From an uncultured SAR86 cluster bacterium (GTDB lineage Bacteria > Pseudomonadota > Gammaproteobacteria > Magnimaribacterales > AG-339-G14): DNA of 64,000 bases. Positions 2,655 through 9,885 of the stretch are shown in pieces. Location: positions 124,001 to 188,000 of the forward strand of contig CACILL010000002.1 in the NCBI GenBank assembly GCA_902587545.1, read 5' to 3'. The notes below the pieces were generated by a model. That model worked only from the letters and a program-made list of their open reading frames with translations. It was not told the origin of the DNA and did not search any database. The position numbers and the translations under genes were made by a program. The number at the start of each line of letters is the position of its first letter. The stretch's first letter is position 1.

Positions 2655-3650
2655 ATGAAAGAAGTAAATGTTTTAGTAACTGGAGCTGCCGGTCAAATCG
2701 GTTATGCCTTATTGACTAGATTGGCTAGTGGTGAAACTTTTGGGCCGGATGTTAAAGTTAATTTGAACCTTGTTGAAGTTCCCCAAGTAGTATCTAGGCT
2801 TGAAGGCTCTCGCATGGAATTAGAAGATTGTGGTTTTAATACCTTGGGAACTGTAAAAAACTTTTCCGATATGAATGAAGCTTCAGGAGATGTAGATTGG
2901 GCTCTTTTAGTTGGCAGCATCCCGAGAGGTATCACTATCAATGGAAAAAAAATTGAAGAACGCGCAGACTTATTAAGAATAAATGGCGGAATTTTTACTG
3001 AACAAGGAAAAGCTCTAGGAGAAAACGCCAAGGCAGATGCAAAAATACTTGTTGTTGGGAACCCGGCAAACACTAACGCTTTAATTGGCTGCACGCATGG
3101 TAAAAATGAGTCTCAAACCTGGATGGCAATGACTGCCTTGGATGCCAACAGAGCTAAAGCTCAGGTAGCAAACAAATGCAATTTGGAGATTTCCGATATT
3201 AAGAAAATGACGATATGGGGAAATCACAGTCCAACCATGTATCCTGATTTGGACAATGCAGAAATCAAAGGCGAATCAGCAAGCGGTTGGATCAATGATC
3301 AAAATTGGATTGAAAGTGATTTTCTAAGAATAGTGCAACAACGTGGAAAAGCCATTATCGATGCCAGAGGAGCTTCTTCTGCAACGTCAGCAGCTAATGC
3401 TGCTATTGATACTGTAAAGGCAACACTTTTAGAAACTCCTGAAAGTGACTGGTTCAGTGCGGCAGTTTTAAGCGACGGCTGTTACAATGTTCCAGAAGGT
3501 TTAATTTTTGGCTTTCCTTTGAAGGCAGATGCCAATGGAAAGATCTCAATTGTCCAAGATTTGCCGATAAGCGATTATGCGCAGGAAAAAATTGATCTAA
3601 CTACTCAGGAGCTTCTGGATGAGAAAAACGATATCAAAGACTTGTTGTAA
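2655..3650 (+). CDS. mdh: Malate dehydrogenase (type 2, cytosolic-type)
   Basis: 331 residues, normal for the family. Visible features are the NAD-binding TGAAGQIGYALL loop near the N-terminus, substrate and active-site Arg residues around GSIPRG, VVGNPANTNA (the NAD-contact Asn) and the catalytic His in IWGNHSPTMYPD. It interconverts malate and oxaloacetate with NAD in the cytoplasm and completes the TCA cycle whose other enzymes (sdh, suc) lie at 45-50 kb. It starts at ATG 2655 with AAGGA just upstream and directly follows the thiolase-like gene, so the two are probably co-transcribed. Confidence 0.95.
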   Translation: MKEVNVLVTGAAGQIGYALLTRLASGETFGPDVKVNLNLVEVPQVVSRLEGSRMELEDCGFNTLGTVKNFSDMNEASGDVDWALLVGSIPRGITINGKKIEERADLLRINGGIFTEQGKALGENAKADAKILVVGNPANTNALIGCTHGKNESQTWMAMTALDANRAKAQVANKCNLEISDIKKMTIWGNHSPTMYPDLDNAEIKGESASGWINDQNWIESDFLRIVQQRGKAIIDARGASSATSAANAAIDTVKATLLETPESDWFSAAVLSDGCYNVPEGLIFGFPLKADANGKISIVQDLPISDYAQEKIDLTTQELLDEKNDIKDLL

Positions 3651-3690
3651 AATTCAATAAGGGATAAATTCAAGAATTATTCTAAAAAAA

Positions 3691-4074
3691 ATGAAAAAAT
3701 TATTAAGTTTTCTTCTTGTTGCATCATTCTTGGTAGCTTGTGCAGGAGGTCAATTTACAAATTCTTCAACCACAATCAAGCCAGCTTATGTGTCTCCTGC
3801 GATGTACATGAACCTTTCGTGTAATGAATTAGAAAGAGAGGCTGCTAAATTAATCTCGAAGGCACCTGAATTAGAAAATGAGATAGATAAAATTAAAAAA
3901 GATAATGATGTCTGGATATCCACCGGAGCTGTTCTTTTTCTTCCGCTCCTTGCGGGGATGAAACCCAATAAAGAGCAAGCTGAAGAATTGGCTCAAATAA
4001 GAGGAAATTTAGTTGCCGTAAAAGAAGTTGCAATGAGAAAAAGCTGTCGTGGGGCTGGATATATTCCTCAGTAA
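3691..4074 (+). CDS. Small lipoprotein of unknown function
   Basis: 127 residues. The N-terminus is a lipoprotein signal: MKKLL, a hydrophobic stretch, then the lipobox LVAC with the acylated Cys at about residue 17. The mature part is mostly helical with a charged segment near residues 52-70. It then has a short hydrophobic stretch, GAVLFLPLLAG, and two further Cys residues. I do not recognise a domain. The stop codon overlaps the start of the PrsW-type gene (TAATG), so the two are translationally coupled. The whole plus-strand cluster to 6494 looks like envelope proteins. Confidence 0.7.
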   Translation: MKKLLSFLLVASFLVACAGGQFTNSSTTIKPAYVSPAMYMNLSCNELEREAAKLISKAPELENEIDKIKKDNDVWISTGAVLFLPLLAGMKPNKEQAEELAQIRGNLVAVKEVAMRKSCRGAGYIPQ

Positions 4075-4736
4075 TGATAACGCTTGGATTAACAATTATT
4101 CCAAGCATAGCAATTCTCTTGTACGTAATTTTTTCTGATAAATTCAGAGAGCCATTAATTTCTATTTTAACTACCTTTTTTTTAGGATTTTTAATAATCC
4201 TACCTGCAGGTTTTTTAAATAGTTTCTTAATTTTTCAAAATCAGGAACAAGACTTATCTTTTTTAGCAGGACTCACGGAAGAGTCACTAAAATTATTTTG
4301 CTTATATTTCTTTATCAGAGAAAAAAAGCATTTTAACGAGCCTATGGATGGTATTGTTTATGGAGTTTTAATTTCTCTAGGATTTGCGACTTATGAAAAT
4401 ATTCAATACGTTTACATCCTCTCTACAGAATATGGAGTAGCCCCTTTTGAAGTAGCTGCATGGAGGTCATTTTCTGCAATCCCGATGCATGCAATTTGTG
4501 GAATCATAATGGGTTATTTTTTTGGTGAGTATGTTTTTAAAGGTAACTCATCTGATATATTTAAAAGTTGGATTATTCCAATGATATTTCATGGTTTATA
4601 CAACTTCCTTGTGACTTTCACGCTTTTATATTTGATAATACTTTTCATTGCAGGAGCTTATGCTTATCGATTGCTCAAAAATGTTGCAAAAAAACAAAAA
4701 TTAAAAAATATTGAGGATGAAAAAAAAGCTATCTAA
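4074..4736 (+). CDS. PrsW-family intramembrane metalloprotease
   Basis: 220 residues, strongly hydrophobic with about seven membrane segments. Family motifs are present in order: TEESLK (the EExxK motif), MDGIVYG, ATYENIQYV, PMHAICG and IFHGLYNF, which together supply the Glu and His residues expected for metal binding. PrsW of Bacillus subtilis cleaves an anti-sigma factor within the membrane. The substrate here is unknown, and no sigma/anti-sigma pair is nearby. It sits between a lipoprotein gene (overlapping stop/start) and the ion-channel gene, whose 5' end overlaps its 3' end, so the three are likely one transcript. Confidence 0.8.
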   Translation: MITLGLTIIPSIAILLYVIFSDKFREPLISILTTFFLGFLIILPAGFLNSFLIFQNQEQDLSFLAGLTEESLKLFCLYFFIREKKHFNEPMDGIVYGVLISLGFATYENIQYVYILSTEYGVAPFEVAAWRSFSAIPMHAICGIIMGYFFGEYVFKGNSSDIFKSWIIPMIFHGLYNFLVTFTLLYLIILFIAGAYAYRLLKNVAKKQKLKNIEDEKKAI

Positions 4737-6180
4737 ATATTTATTTTTTGCATTTATGTACATTTTTTTTTCTTCATCTATTTTTGGAGAGAAAGTCACT
4801 ATAGATGTAGAATTTAACGAATGTGAAATTCTAGAAAATTTACTTATTTCAAATCCTTCAAAAATTGCATTTAATCTTCCATATTTATCCGATGCAGAGT
4901 ATTCAGGAATAGATTATGTTTTTATGGGAGATGCCTATCCTCTCATAACGAAAATTCACCCAAAGAGCATAGTAAATGGCCAGTTAATTACAAAAGCAAT
5001 TCACGAGATTGTTCTTAATGAAAAACTCACAAAAATTAATGGTAAAGACGTTTTGACATTGGACGAAACTCAACTGGAAGAGGAATTTTACAAAGAATCT
5101 ATATTTTTGGAATTTGAGAACTTTGAAGATATTTTTGAATTCAAGCTACAAAGTTTAAGCTGGCGTGAAGTTCTTGTTAGGCCTGAACTTAACTGGATAA
5201 AAAATATAAATACTAAAGAAGGTAAAATAGATATATCACTTGATCTAAATGTAAATTGGAGTGACACGTTTATTTCAAGAGAAGCTAATAAACTAAAAGG
5301 CATAGACTCTGTAGATGGATCTTGGCAGTGCATATATCCCATAGAATTGTTTAAAGAGTTAGGATACTTATTGCCAAAACCTATCTTTGTTGGTTTTGAA
5401 CCAAGTTTTGAAGACATAGAAATAAAATCTGTAACAGTTGCTTACTTTCCTCCAGAATTTTGTACCCCTGAGGCTGATTGCGATCCCTACGAAAAGGAAC
5501 ATGGTGAAACCCAACTCGTATATAAAAAAGAATATGTAGGAATTTTGAATTCCACATACAATTTAGAGAAGTTCCCTTTTGATACTCAAGACATTGTTGT
5601 TAGCTTTTATCTGGAAAATTTAACACAGTATCTTGATGACCCTACCACCGAAAGTAGGACAGATGACTTTTTGTATTACGCTTTATCTAAAAATAATTTC
5701 TTAGAATGGGATCTACTAAATTATGATGTTAACTATGGAACAACTTTAGATGTTTTAAGAGATGAAGTAATACCTACCTTTAATTTAAGTGTAACGGTCA
5801 AGAGGGAATCTCTATATTATCTGTTTAAAATTATGTTTCCCATTTTTTGTTTGGTGTTTATATGTTATTCAGTTTTTTGGATACACCCACGACAATTAGA
5901 AAGCCGGGTTACGATCAGCATAGTTTGCTTGTTGTCTCTTATAGCTTATAACTTTGTAATTGATGGCGACATACCAAAACTGGCATATCTAACTTTTCTA
6001 GATCAATACATTCTTTTATCGTACTTATTTGCCGGAATTCCGACAATCCAGACAGTTATAGTAAGAAGAGTTTATGAAAATAATGGAGAAGAAAAGGCAT
6101 TAAATTTTGATTACTATTCAAAAACTTTATTTCCATTAGGCTTTTTTATTATATTTACCTACCTAATTTTTACAATTTAA
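4717..6180 (+). CDS. Pentameric ligand-gated ion channel with N-terminal PDZ-like domain
   Basis: 487 residues from ATG 4717; an in-frame TTG at 4711 is an alternative start. A signal peptide (KKKLSKYLFF... ending SSIFG) comes first. Residues about 55-150 look like a PDZ-type fold: a strand GIDYVFM, a strand YPLITKIHPKS, LTKINGKDV, then a helix. A pLGIC extracellular domain follows (about 170-365), with KFPFDTQD in the Cys-loop position, here without the Cys pair. Four membrane segments end the protein: M1 around MFPIFCLVF, pore-lining M2 around SRVTISIVCLLS, M3 around LDQYILLSYLF and a C-terminal M4. Such channels pass ions when a ligand binds outside. The ligand is unknown. The gene overlaps the prsW-like gene by 20 bases. 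Confidence 0.8.
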   Translation: MKKKLSKYLFFAFMYIFFSSSIFGEKVTIDVEFNECEILENLLISNPSKIAFNLPYLSDAEYSGIDYVFMGDAYPLITKIHPKSIVNGQLITKAIHEIVLNEKLTKINGKDVLTLDETQLEEEFYKESIFLEFENFEDIFEFKLQSLSWREVLVRPELNWIKNINTKEGKIDISLDLNVNWSDTFISREANKLKGIDSVDGSWQCIYPIELFKELGYLLPKPIFVGFEPSFEDIEIKSVTVAYFPPEFCTPEADCDPYEKEHGETQLVYKKEYVGILNSTYNLEKFPFDTQDIVVSFYLENLTQYLDDPTTESRTDDFLYYALSKNNFLEWDLLNYDVNYGTTLDVLRDEVIPTFNLSVTVKRESLYYLFKIMFPIFCLVFICYSVFWIHPRQLESRVTISIVCLLSLIAYNFVIDGDIPKLAYLTFLDQYILLSYLFAGIPTIQTVIVRRVYENNGEEKALNFDYYSKTLFPLGFFIIFTYLIFTI

Positions 6181-6200
6181 TACTTTTTTAATATTTTAAA

Positions 6201-6494
6201 ATGAAACAAAGGCTTTGGCTTATACCTGTAATCACCTTGGCAGTTGGAATTTTTCCAATGCCCTACGGATATTATAATTTTTTAAGACTAGTTATATTTT
6301 TATGTTCTTTATTCTTAGCTTACAAGCTTTACAAGTTGAAAGATTTCGTTTTTGTAGCTTTTTTTAGTTTTTTTGTAATTCTTTATAACCCTATCTTTCC
6401 TATTTATTTATATGAAAAAAGTTTATGGATGATAATTAATCTCATCACAGCTTTTGCCTTTTATTACAAAAAAGATAATTTTAAATTCGAATAA
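6201..6494 (+). CDS. Small integral membrane protein (DUF6804-like)
   Basis: 97 residues with three or four predicted membrane helices. The sequence MPYGYYNFLRL near the N-terminus and YNPIFPIYL in the middle resemble the small DUF6804 family of unknown function. It follows the ion-channel gene by 20 bases on the same strand, so it is probably the last gene of that cluster. It ends head-on against the VWA-like gene, with one base between the two stop codons. No function can be given. Confidence 0.6.
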   Translation: MKQRLWLIPVITLAVGIFPMPYGYYNFLRLVIFLCSLFLAYKLYKLKDFVFVAFFSFFVILYNPIFPIYLYEKSLWMIINLITAFAFYYKKDNFKFE

Positions 6495-6495
6495 G

Positions 6496-7425
6496 CTATA
6501 CAGAATCAAATAACATTCTGTAATCAATATTCTCTCTCTTGACGCCTGCCCATTCAAAAAAAGAAATCCAAAAACCCTTCAAATTTCTTTCAAGAGGTTT
6601 TCCTCTAACTTCCTTATTTATTACGTGATAGATTATTATCTTTGAGTTTTCTGAGAAAGAAGGCTTAATTTCATCCAAATAAGATTGAATTTTTCTTGAA
6701 GCAGCTTTATAAAATTTTTCAAAATCGGAACAGTTTAGTTTTGTATTATAGTCCTTACATAACTTTCTCAAAAAAATACGATCGCTAAATTGCATCAAAT
6801 CAGAAAATAGAACCAATGTCCTTTCTTGGTAATCGCTTTCTCTAAAATCAAATTTTGAAACGGTGGTCACAGCATTTATATGTTCAAAAAGAAGAGTTTT
6901 ATTTGCAGGTTTAGCAGCTCCTAGACTTTCTAAAGATTTTAGCTGTGTTAATGCTCCCCATTTACGGAACTCATTCTTTGTAAAATTTACTCCTTGAGAT
7001 GAATGCGGAGCATCTGCTGCAAATGGTGAAACAGCAATGCCACTTCTTGGTCGGCAGCGATCTGCAAGAGGAATCGCCTCTGATGGAGTGACTTTATCAT
7101 TTAAATTTATTAGAGATACTTTCGTATAAGGCTCTAATGAAAGTAAGGTTTTTCTATCGAGCACATCTCCTTTCAAAAAACCGATTTCGTTATTGCTTAG
7201 ACCATCTGTAGTGTCTACTAAAACGAGATAATGTTTCCTCTTCATCTCAGAAAGTAAAGGACAAGATTTTGAATCAAAACATTCTTTCTTTGTTATCAGA
7301 GGAGGGTTTCTTGTTTGTCCATCTACGTCAGATTTGCATACTTCATTTAGGTTTTCATCTGATCCAAAAAAAGTAAAAGCAGAGAAGCTAAAACTAAAAA
7401 TAAAAAAAAGAACTATCCTTATCAT
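6496..7425 (-). CDS. Secreted VWA-like protein of unknown function
   Basis: 309 residues with a signal peptide (about 1-20, hydrophobic IRIVLFFIFSFSFSAF). A strand with acidic residues, HYLVLVDTTDGLS (about 65-77), and a later strand, RTLVLFSDLMQF, resemble the first and fourth strands of a von Willebrand A / Rossmann-like fold with a partial metal-binding site. Several Cys residues (near 30, 49, 55, 125, 220 and 232) suit an exported, disulfide-bonded protein. The start overlaps the stop of the preceding membrane-protein gene (ATGA), so the two are translationally coupled and probably act together at the inner membrane. The VWA assignment is from pattern only. Confidence 0.55.
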   Translation of the reverse strand: MIRIVLFFIFSFSFSAFTFFGSDENLNEVCKSDVDGQTRNPPLITKKECFDSKSCPLLSEMKRKHYLVLVDTTDGLSNNEIGFLKGDVLDRKTLLSLEPYTKVSLINLNDKVTPSEAIPLADRCRPRSGIAVSPFAADAPHSSQGVNFTKNEFRKWGALTQLKSLESLGAAKPANKTLLFEHINAVTTVSKFDFRESDYQERTLVLFSDLMQFSDRIFLRKLCKDYNTKLNCSDFEKFYKAASRKIQSYLDEIKPSFSENSKIIIYHVINKEVRGKPLERNLKGFWISFFEWAGVKRENIDYRMLFDSV

Positions 7426-8855
7426 TGAATCAGCCCATCTCTTTGATTGCTGTATTCTTCGTAGATCTCTTGAATACGTCTCAGAACACTATCTCTATTG
7501 ACTTCTAGAGTTCTTGTTGCTTCAGCTTTAATCTGATTGGCAGCATCATCTTCAAAGTATTCTCCTTGCAAGAAAGGAAAAGTGTTTGAAAATGAATAAT
7601 TATTAGGATTTAAATGAGTTTCAAATTCTGGGGACCTGATCAAGTCATAGTAAGCCGATCTTCCATGTAAATTTTGATTTCTATATTCATCATTTTTTGA
7701 ATAATATTCTTGTATCGCATGATCTAGCTTTGATGAAACATCTCTAATGAAAGAATCAAAACTTGATTTAAATAATTGTAGGGTTTCTACAGAACTTCTC
7801 CAAAGTTGAATTGACTCTATATCAGATTCAAATTCCTTCTTCACTTCATTAGAAAAATGAGTCATTCTAGAAAGTAATTTTTCGGTAAGAGCATTCCTAT
7901 TGTCTTCAAGATTTGATTTTGCTTTGTTTACTTTCTCTCCAAGAGACCCATATCCTCTGTAAGTATCATTTTTAAATAAACCATCTAAAAGAGAGGCAAA
8001 CGCAAAAATAAAACATACTGTTATAAATTGAATGCCGTTTTGCTCTAATGCACCTAGTTGACTAAAGGGATTCCCCACCTGGACTAAAGCTAAGCCAAAA
8101 GAAAAATCTTCACTATTAGCTTGATTTTCTAATAGGGACCTATATACCCCAAAAAGAAAATTTACAAAGGTAATTAAAGCAAGCCACAAAATAACAAAAA
8201 CAGAACCCCAAATACGATATGTTATTTCTTTAAACCAAAGCCATGGGAGCATCATGCCTATGAAAAATGAGGTCAATACATTTACAAGAGAGATTCCTAA
8301 GGCCATCATTTGACCTGCAACAGCACCGCCTTGCATGTTATCAGCAAAAACTTGTCCGTTATAATATGTTTCAAAACCTATGAAAACTAAGGGAACCAAG
8401 TAAGTAACAATCTTTATCCAATAAGGACGAACTACTGGGTCTCTTTTAAGTCTATGTTCCAGTTTGAAAGTTCTGAGATTATTTTCTGTTCGGCTAACTT
8501 CATCTCTTAAGGTAGCAAAATCTGATTCCGCACCTGCAAAATCTGCGTTTAATTGAGCCCTCATTTCTCCTTCAATTCTTGAAAAAGGATTTAAACTAAA
8601 TTTCTGTCTGTTATTGCTAATGTAGCCTGCTATATCTTGACTCCATGCTCTAGCTCTCTGTGTTTCTTCTCCTATGTGATTCAAAGCCTCAGTTTCAGCT
8701 TCTTGTGCGGTTTCGCAAAGAGAATTTAGCTCAGCCGAAGGTAGCCCTGCAGCAGCATCATTTTGTGCTCTATTTTCAATATCAGCTTTTCTTTCAAGCT
8801 CATGAGTTTCTAACAGTTTAAACTCAAAAACATCTATATCTAACTGTACGCCCAT
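7422..8855 (-). CDS. Coiled-coil inner-membrane protein of unknown function
   Basis: 477 residues. A long charged, helical N-terminal region (1-140) rich in Glu, Arg and Ala precedes four predicted membrane helices (about 146-163, 181-205, 214-238 and 274-294). A second long helical, coiled-coil-like region (about 305-400) and a Glu-rich C-terminal helix follow. I recognise no family. The layout suggests cytoplasmic helical arms on a four-helix membrane core. It lies upstream of, and overlaps by 4 bases, the secreted VWA-like gene; three tiny genes precede it. The 89 bases upstream (8856-8944) show no gene and probably hold a leader or promoter. Confidence 0.55.
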   Translation of the reverse strand: MGVQLDIDVFEFKLLETHELERKADIENRAQNDAAAGLPSAELNSLCETAQEAETEALNHIGEETQRARAWSQDIAGYISNNRQKFSLNPFSRIEGEMRAQLNADFAGAESDFATLRDEVSRTENNLRTFKLEHRLKRDPVVRPYWIKIVTYLVPLVFIGFETYYNGQVFADNMQGGAVAGQMMALGISLVNVLTSFFIGMMLPWLWFKEITYRIWGSVFVILWLALITFVNFLFGVYRSLLENQANSEDFSFGLALVQVGNPFSQLGALEQNGIQFITVCFIFAFASLLDGLFKNDTYRGYGSLGEKVNKAKSNLEDNRNALTEKLLSRMTHFSNEVKKEFESDIESIQLWRSSVETLQLFKSSFDSFIRDVSSKLDHAIQEYYSKNDEYRNQNLHGRSAYYDLIRSPEFETHLNPNNYSFSNTFPFLQGEYFEDDAANQIKAEATRTLEVNRDSVLRRIQEIYEEYSNQRDGLIQ

Positions 8856-8944
8856 AATTTTGTTCGAAAACTTTACAATATTTTTTTCCTTTCTGCATCC
8901 TAAAAGCTAAATAAAGAAGCTCCTGTTGATAAATAAATTACCTT

Positions 8945-9070
8945 TTAATGCCTATGAATCATATGTTCTACAGAATGTTGCATTTTCTCTAGTTGAGTGT
9001 GATAGAAGTTATAAAGGAAAGCTCCTCCAAAAATTAAAATAAGAATTACAAATATCAAAGTTTTATTCAT
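8945..9070 (-). CDS. 41-residue single-pass membrane microprotein
   Basis: A short open frame reading MNKTLIFVILILIFGGAF and then a His-rich soluble tail (Q-H-S-V-E-H-M-I-H-R-H). It has one membrane helix with a short charged C-terminus. Its ATG overlaps the TAA of the preceding small gene (TAATG), and GGAG-like spacing is compatible with coupled translation. Support is the overlap, the clean membrane helix and the position inside a tightly packed minus-strand run. The function is unknown. Confidence 0.45.
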   Translation of the reverse strand: MNKTLIFVILILIFGGAFLYNFYHTQLEKMQHSVEHMIHRH

Positions 9071-9300
9071 TAGTTAATACTCCTATCAATCCACTCCTCT
9101 AAAAAACCTTCGTAGGGTTGTTCTCTATCGTGAATTGGCAAACCGTTATCATCAATAGTTACTCCAAAAAAATACCTTACTCCAACATGGAAGGATTCCA
9201 TAATAAAACCCTCATCTAGAGCTAATGGAACTCCTTGATGATCAGATCTGTATTTTAAATAGTTAAGAAATCTTATTGGTTGAAAATCTTCTTCATTCAT
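9070..9300 (-). CDS. Small hypothetical protein (76 aa)
   Basis: Starts at ATG 9300 (MNEEDFQPIRFLNYL...), overlapping the end of the upstream small gene by 8 bases; an in-frame TTG at 9306 is an alternative. It is acidic, with aromatic-rich segments such as MESFHVGVRYFFGV. No signal or membrane segment is visible and I do not recognise a family. Its stop overlaps the start of the 41-residue membrane microprotein, which argues for co-translation. Confidence 0.5.
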   Translation of the reverse strand: MNEEDFQPIRFLNYLKYRSDHQGVPLALDEGFIMESFHVGVRYFFGVTIDDNGLPIHDREQPYEGFLEEWIDRSIN

Positions 9301-9538
9301 TTTCAACTCTTTCCAGATGTTCAGCTAGTGTTTTCCAAATCTTAGATTGTGAACTAATTTCTTTTTTAGCCAATAATCCTGCGGCATTTCCATATGCCCT
9401 TGAAATATATGAATTATTTTCTTCAGAACAATCTAAAATATATGTGCTTCTTCCGAAATTAAACTTGATAGTCTTATCATCAACCACAGAAAATGTTAAG
9501 TGTGTCTTTTTAGATTCAAGTTTTTTTTGTTTTTTCAT
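9293..9538 (-). CDS. Small hypothetical protein (81 aa)
   Basis: A basic N-terminus (MKKQKKLESKK) is followed by short strands (THLTFSVV, TIKFNFGRSTYILDC) and a C-terminal helix. It is predicted soluble and I recognise no family. Its ATG overlaps the TGA of the DUF6285 gene (ATGA), and its 3' end overlaps the next small gene. It is therefore part of one continuous minus-strand transcript from the acyl-CoA dehydrogenase gene onward, although its role need not be linked to that pathway. Confidence 0.5.
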   Translation of the reverse strand: MKKQKKLESKKTHLTFSVVDDKTIKFNFGRSTYILDCSEENNSYISRAYGNAAGLLAKKEISSQSKIWKTLAEHLERVENE

Positions 9539-9885
9539 AACTTATATTTGGGATTATCTATTTTAATTTTTTCCTCTGTAAGGTCATAAAGAAAATCTAT
9601 AAGATCTTTGTCTTCATGGTTAAATTCTTTATCTCTTATTTTTTGAGACAATTTATCTATAGCGAAACCATTTTCTCCAATTAGCTTTGAACCTAATTCA
9701 GTGAATTTTTCATTAATCGCTTTTCCAGTTTCAACCTCTCTTTTAACGATATTCAAAACATTTAAAACAATTTGAAATTTAAACTTTTTATTTGCAGGAT
9801 GAGAGTCAGATTTTATTTCGTCATTGATAAAATCAATTATCGCCTCCAAAAGTTCTGCAGAGGTTGGTCTATCAAAAACACTCAT
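9535..9885 (-). CDS. DUF6285 domain protein
   Basis: 116 residues. The start, RPTSAELLEAIIDFINDEI, followed by FKFQIVLNVLNIVKREVE, matches the DUF6285 pattern, a small helical domain of unknown function. Proteins of this type are commonly encoded beside an APH-type phosphotransferase and an acyl-CoA dehydrogenase, exactly as here. It overlaps both neighbours by 4 bases (ATGA junctions). The inferred role is an accessory to the kinase/dehydrogenase pair upstream; no catalytic residues can be named. Confidence 0.7.
   Translation of the reverse strand: MSVFDRPTSAELLEAIIDFINDEIKSDSHPANKKFKFQIVLNVLNIVKREVETGKAINEKFTELGSKLIGENGFAIDKLSQKIRDKEFNHEDKDLIDFLYDLTEEKIKIDNPKYKL

Follow-up and report, generated by a model that had tools for sequence, protein, structure and literature searches.

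The 64,000-nucleotide stretch of SAR86 DNA analyzed here (the window), which comes from a genome of 1.13 Mb, encodes a ligand-gated ion channel subunit of the pLGIC family (P0001) in which an additional periplasmic segment lies between the signal peptide and the ligand-binding domain. On balance, we favor the reading that this protein forms an inner-membrane pLGIC in which each subunit carries a periplasmic PDZ-like domain of ~100 residues, the partner of which would most likely be PrsW, a protease of this family being encoded immediately upstream, or a PrsW substrate. The features considered are as follows, all on the forward (+) strand:

2655..3650, +, malate dehydrogenase gene (mdh), the syntenic anchor (synteny in relatives; Pfam Ldh_1 on the orthologue in G149)
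4074..4736, +, PrsW-family intramembrane protease gene (Pfam PF13367), overlapping the channel gene by 20 bp
4717..6180, +, pLGIC subunit gene (P0001), 487 aa, with Pfam, NCBIfam and PDB matches
4717..4788, +, signal peptide, residues 1-24 (MKKKLSKYLFFAFMYIFFSSSIFG), read from the sequence, with a predicted cleavage site
4789..4857, +, short N-terminal extension, residues 25-47, without family match
4858..5157, +, probable PDZ-like domain, residues ~48-147, from the two-row profile against the RseP PDZ
4939-5151, +, profile-aligned core of the PDZ-like domain, residues 75-145 (hhalign)
5164..5808, +, ligand-binding beta-sandwich domain, residues ~150-364 (covered by PDB alignments from residue 266 on; N-terminal limit judged by eye in the alignment with the relative P0002)
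5572..5583, +, Pro-loop motif FPFD, residues 286-289, invariant in P0002
5812..6177, +, four-helix transmembrane domain, residues 366-487 (Pfam PF02932 at residues 373-454; hydropathy)

The channel gene and its pLGIC core

The original prediction of a pLGIC core with FPFD and four membrane helices agrees with Pfam, NCBIfam, PDB and hydropathy alike. P0001 passes the cut-off of the Pfam model Neur_chan_memb (PF02932; 29.7 bits, cut-off 28.1) and matches NCBIfam LGIC_1 with an E of 2.9e-29, yet far under the curated cut-off of that subfamily. Sequence matches in the PDB are ELIC, DeCLIC and GLIC chains (E 6e-14 to 1e-11), and hydropathy places hydrophobic helices with peaks at residues 369-387, 398-416, 431-449 and 469-487. 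In P0002, the closest relative, the ligand-binding domain matches PF02931 with an E of 3e-4, which is under the cut-off. Judged from these matches, P0001 is a genuine pLGIC subunit, and the channel would presumably be homopentameric and located in the inner membrane. The M2 helix, compared by eye with GLIC, has what we take to be E at -2', T at 2' and L at 9', residues that suggest a channel that is probably cation-selective.

The open reading frame runs from the ATG at 4717 to 6180, with an in-frame TTG at 4711 as a possible alternative start. Since the signal peptide sits at the N-terminus and is directly followed by the extra segment, a mis-set start, which could have produced the segment artificially, is excluded. 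The extra segment itself is present as predicted, but its length of ~140 residues had been overestimated; it spans ~125 residues (25-150), with the strands of the ligand-binding domain beginning at ~150. GLIC and ELIC likewise have a signal peptide, a beta-sandwich ligand-binding domain, the Pro-loop and four helices, but they lack an extra domain, whereas P0001 carries these additional ~125 residues in the periplasm.

Similarity of the extra segment to PDZ domains

Part of the extra segment had been read as a PDZ fold from its strand-helix order and a KINGKDV segment; this segment was found at residues 106-112 of P0001, within the profile-aligned core. The N-terminal domain of P0001 has no match to the curated Pfam PDZ models, even up to an E of 10, and single-sequence searches of Pfam and the PDB with this domain returned nothing PDZ. 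The N-terminal domain of P0002, searched alone, gave a sub-threshold Pfam PDZ match at residues 33-64 (E 0.027 for the whole Pfam library; 15.3 bits, cut-off 23.2), while the E for the whole P0002 fragment was 0.28, also for the whole library. This match falls on the segment equivalent to KINGKDV.

Profile comparisons gave a clearer signal. Each of the two N-terminal domains was compared singly with a SAR86 PDZ profile, built from the PDZ domains that PF17820 detected in five genomes. Both aligned in a common register; the scores of 17.7 and 19.0 are modest and lie inside the top 2% of window segments. A two-row profile of the N-terminal domains of P0001 and P0002, its sole close relative, reached hhalign scores of 24.5-31.1 against all SAR86 PDZs; the best 9 of 129 sequence windows all came from the PDZ-like domain, and the maximum among 120 control windows, taken from other paired proteins and the channel core, was 18.6. 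The highest scores were obtained with the PDZs of RseP (33.7 and 31.8; P 2e-5 and 3.5e-5), with hhalign probabilities of 77 and 72%, the former being the peak for this profile, on templates that are small. By comparison, 138 comparisons with non-PDZ profiles gave at most 19.2. In a PDB search with the profile, 13 of 24 weak matches were PDZ chains (LIMK2, GIPC and syntenin; E 0.29-1.3). The PDZ signal is thus common to both sequences, specific and in register, but it lies under curated thresholds. RseP is a site-2 protease, whereas in P0001 the PDZ-like domain would be borne by an ion channel.

These comparisons, together with the one distant relative of the same architecture, make it quite probable that the extra domain of P0001 is PDZ-like, and the original prediction in this respect stands in part, as P0001 itself has no curated PDZ match. 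A less probable explanation is a different small alpha/beta accessory domain, specific to this channel lineage, in which the strand-ING-helix segment came to resemble PDZ by convergence. The missing PDZ match in P0001 would fit such a domain, as would the restriction of the similarity to ~70 residues and the weak alignment of the two N-terminal domains to each other; the score of their direct pairwise alignment lies within shuffles (p ~0.1), so that their homology rests on position and the shared profile match. Convergence does not readily account, however, for the match of each single sequence to PDZ in the same register, or for a joint profile well above all controls.

PDZ domains have a fold of five to six strands and two helices, and in the classical ones a carboxylate-binding loop between the first two strands holds peptide carboxylates. 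Structure prediction, proposed earlier as a check, was run, and its models were too poor to show a PDZ or any other fold, which also leaves room for convergence: AlphaFold gave a pLDDT of 38.6 for full-length P0001 on the two-row alignment and 43.7 for the N-terminal domain of P0002, because just two sequences exist. The matches listed by Foldseek and VIA-align for the latter poor model (pLDDT 43.7) were unrelated folds, with no PDZ among them (E at least 0.1, Z <5), and were given zero weight. The region before residue 75 of P0001 showed no alignment with PDZ profiles. As the aligned core (75-145) begins past the carboxylate-binding loop, binding of C-terminal peptides is not supported, and the idea that the domain ties channel opening to protein C-termini was not borne out. 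A DegS-like role, in which the PDZ-like domain would bind the C-terminal peptides of misfolded envelope proteins and gate the channel, is consistent with a periplasmic domain similar to the PDZs of envelope proteases, but is improbable given that the carboxylate-binding loop region is unmatched and that the closest PDZ type is that of RseP and not of DegQ.

Distribution of the channel and its PrsW-family neighbor

The closest relative, P0002, is encoded on contig 14 of G149, the SAR86 single-cell genome AG-337-O06, which belongs to the same order and thereby places the window in SAR86 as well. P0001 and P0002 were found to be sister channels in the tree (support 99/98), although their identity is merely 29%. 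This channel subfamily was found in 2 of 203 genomes of the SAR86 order, i.e., the window genome and G149, and a search of the 203 SAR86 genomes with the N-terminal domain alone found, below an E of 0.01, only these two channels. Both the channel and PrsW are missing from all 15 congeners of the window genome. One scan of genome contigs yielded AG-337-O06, a plain actinobacterial channel and nothing else, and no close relatives were found on viral contigs, in phages or on plasmids. The architecture, for which a search in related genomes had been suggested, recurs in one distant relative and is rare, with 2 of 203 SAR86 genomes.

Two sets of matches were rejected as relatives: Azospirillum channels matched on plasmids, which aligned over the core only, and SAR86 proteins of 730-770 aa (L014-L021), which belong to a different, non-channel family. 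Channels sampled from the class and the phylum were either plain or had long N-terminal parts, mostly periplasmic-binding-protein-like by eye, and the PDZ-like domain was absent from them. One gammaproteobacterial channel of 684 residues (L030, from G502) begins with a long extra part that, inspected by eye, looks like beta domains in repeat and may be of the DeCLIC type. Five other SAR86 genomes (G041, G193, G013, G126 and G011; members L004, L005, L010, L011 and L013) encode a second pLGIC-like family, highly divergent and ~690-780 residues long, in which the N-terminal part is longer and is periplasmic-binding-protein-like by eye. The L004 protein has no Pfam match at an E of 0.01, channel models included.

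The gene upstream of the channel gene shares PF13367 with PrsW-family intramembrane proteases (E 9e-33; 113.9 bits, cut-off 23.5), yet it does not reach the NCBIfam cut-off for PrsW proper. PrsW was found in 18 of the 203 SAR86 genomes, namely in the window genome, alone in its family, and in 17 genomes of another family. In 16 other SAR86 genomes PrsW occurs without a P0001-type channel and so does not need the channel. Members of the 17-genome family usually have lysS followed by PrsW, then a convergent ORF of ~150 codons, then mdh; in several of them only a few bases separate PrsW from the convergent ORF. In G149, contig 27 carries prfB, lysS and then PrsW, ending within PrsW, and contig 14 carries mdh, a DUF6231 ORF and then the channel, ending within the channel gene. 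Because these contig ends fit the lysS-PrsW-ORF-mdh order of its genus-mates, the simplest reading, across the unsequenced gap between the contigs, is that the channel of G149 would lie directly behind PrsW, as it does in the window.

In two SAR86 families that are distant from each other, the channel thus adjoins PrsW (the adjacency being indicated in G149), while closely related genomes in either family lack the channel. This supports a functional pair of channel and PrsW, although two cases are few and PrsW is often alone. The proposed tie between the channel and the neighboring protease is strengthened insofar as this neighbor is PrsW-like, overlaps the channel gene and appears to be paired with the channel in the relative as well, but the part that the extra domain would play in it we infer. 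A somewhat doubtful alternative is that the PDZ-like channel is a plain chemoreceptor that stands next to PrsW only incidentally, as cargo of a variable locus. Bacterial pLGICs have been proposed as chemoreceptors (PMC549065), the region downstream of mdh varies among congeners, and PrsW without a channel is found in the 16 genomes mentioned above; against this stand the same adjacency indicated in two families, the 20-bp overlap of the two genes and the lack of PrsW in every congener without the channel.

The PrsW tree neither supports nor contradicts a sister relationship of the two PrsW copies linked to channels. In it, the PrsW of G149 (L097/L098, contig 27) does not group with those of its genus-mates, which form a strongly supported clade, hinting that this channel-linked copy may have its own history. 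In the window, positions 3651-9535, from mdh to a DUF6285 gene (9535-9885), represent a hypervariable site at which congeners carry other cargo or none; within the genus the cargo 3' of mdh differs between species, and two of those examined have none. On the - strand, positions 6496-8855 hold a pair of ORFs of 309 and 477 aa that overlap each other and match no Pfam family; the one of 477 aa has a weak PADLOC LeoBC match (E 4.5e-4), in which no individual stretch passes on its own. Neither the channel nor PrsW matched a known defence family.

Comparison with known channels and proposed role

Accessory domains at the N-terminus of prokaryotic pLGICs have been described before. DeCLIC and P0001 both have such a domain, placed after the signal peptide and ahead of the ligand-binding domain. 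That of DeCLIC is built from two jelly-roll lobes, which account for roughly half of the receptor (PMC9897478, PMC12664993), whereas P0001 would have one short PDZ-like domain without sequence match to it; ~125 residues are short for two jelly-roll lobes, and the PDB match of P0001 to DeCLIC covers residues 330-485 only. Other pLGICs are fused to PBP-I, Cache or MCP-N domains (Tasneem et al., PMC549065), which, as in P0001, are periplasmic and precede the channel core, but which bind small molecules, unlike the PDZ-like domain. The word PDZ is absent from PMC4795631, PMC549065 and PMC12664993, and a text search of the literature, with most subscription journals outside its scope, found no paper on PDZ and pLGIC, PrsW and pLGIC or SAR86 and pLGIC, which is no proof of novelty. 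As the pair recurs in one distant relative, P0001 with its PDZ-like domain is a rare variant of a known channel family and not a new kind of system.

The most likely role of the extra domain would be docking or regulation in concert with PrsW. In each subunit it would follow the signal peptide and precede the ligand-binding domain; in the pentamer, the PDZ-like domains would form a ring over the ligand-binding domains, positioned like the accessory domain of DeCLIC. The domain may be a degenerate PDZ that serves docking or allosteric control and not a classical receptor for C-terminal peptides. Docking of a protein partner to the ring could then adjust gating, the best candidates being PrsW, its substrate or its product, and proteolysis or the state of the envelope could tune channel opening. 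A more far-reaching version, in which the PDZ-like ring would recognize unfolded or PrsW-cleaved polypeptides and open a cation pore, turning envelope proteolysis into an ion-flux signal, appears quite unlikely.

Little is understood of the accessory N-terminal domains in prokaryotic pLGICs, and that of DeCLIC has been described as the only one partly characterized (PMC12664993). The pairing with a PrsW-like protease supplies a concrete, testable partner for the channel. If the proposed reading is true, the channel would carry a protein-docking domain instead of a small-molecule sensor, and proteins or proteolysis could thereby control a relative of neurotransmitter receptors.
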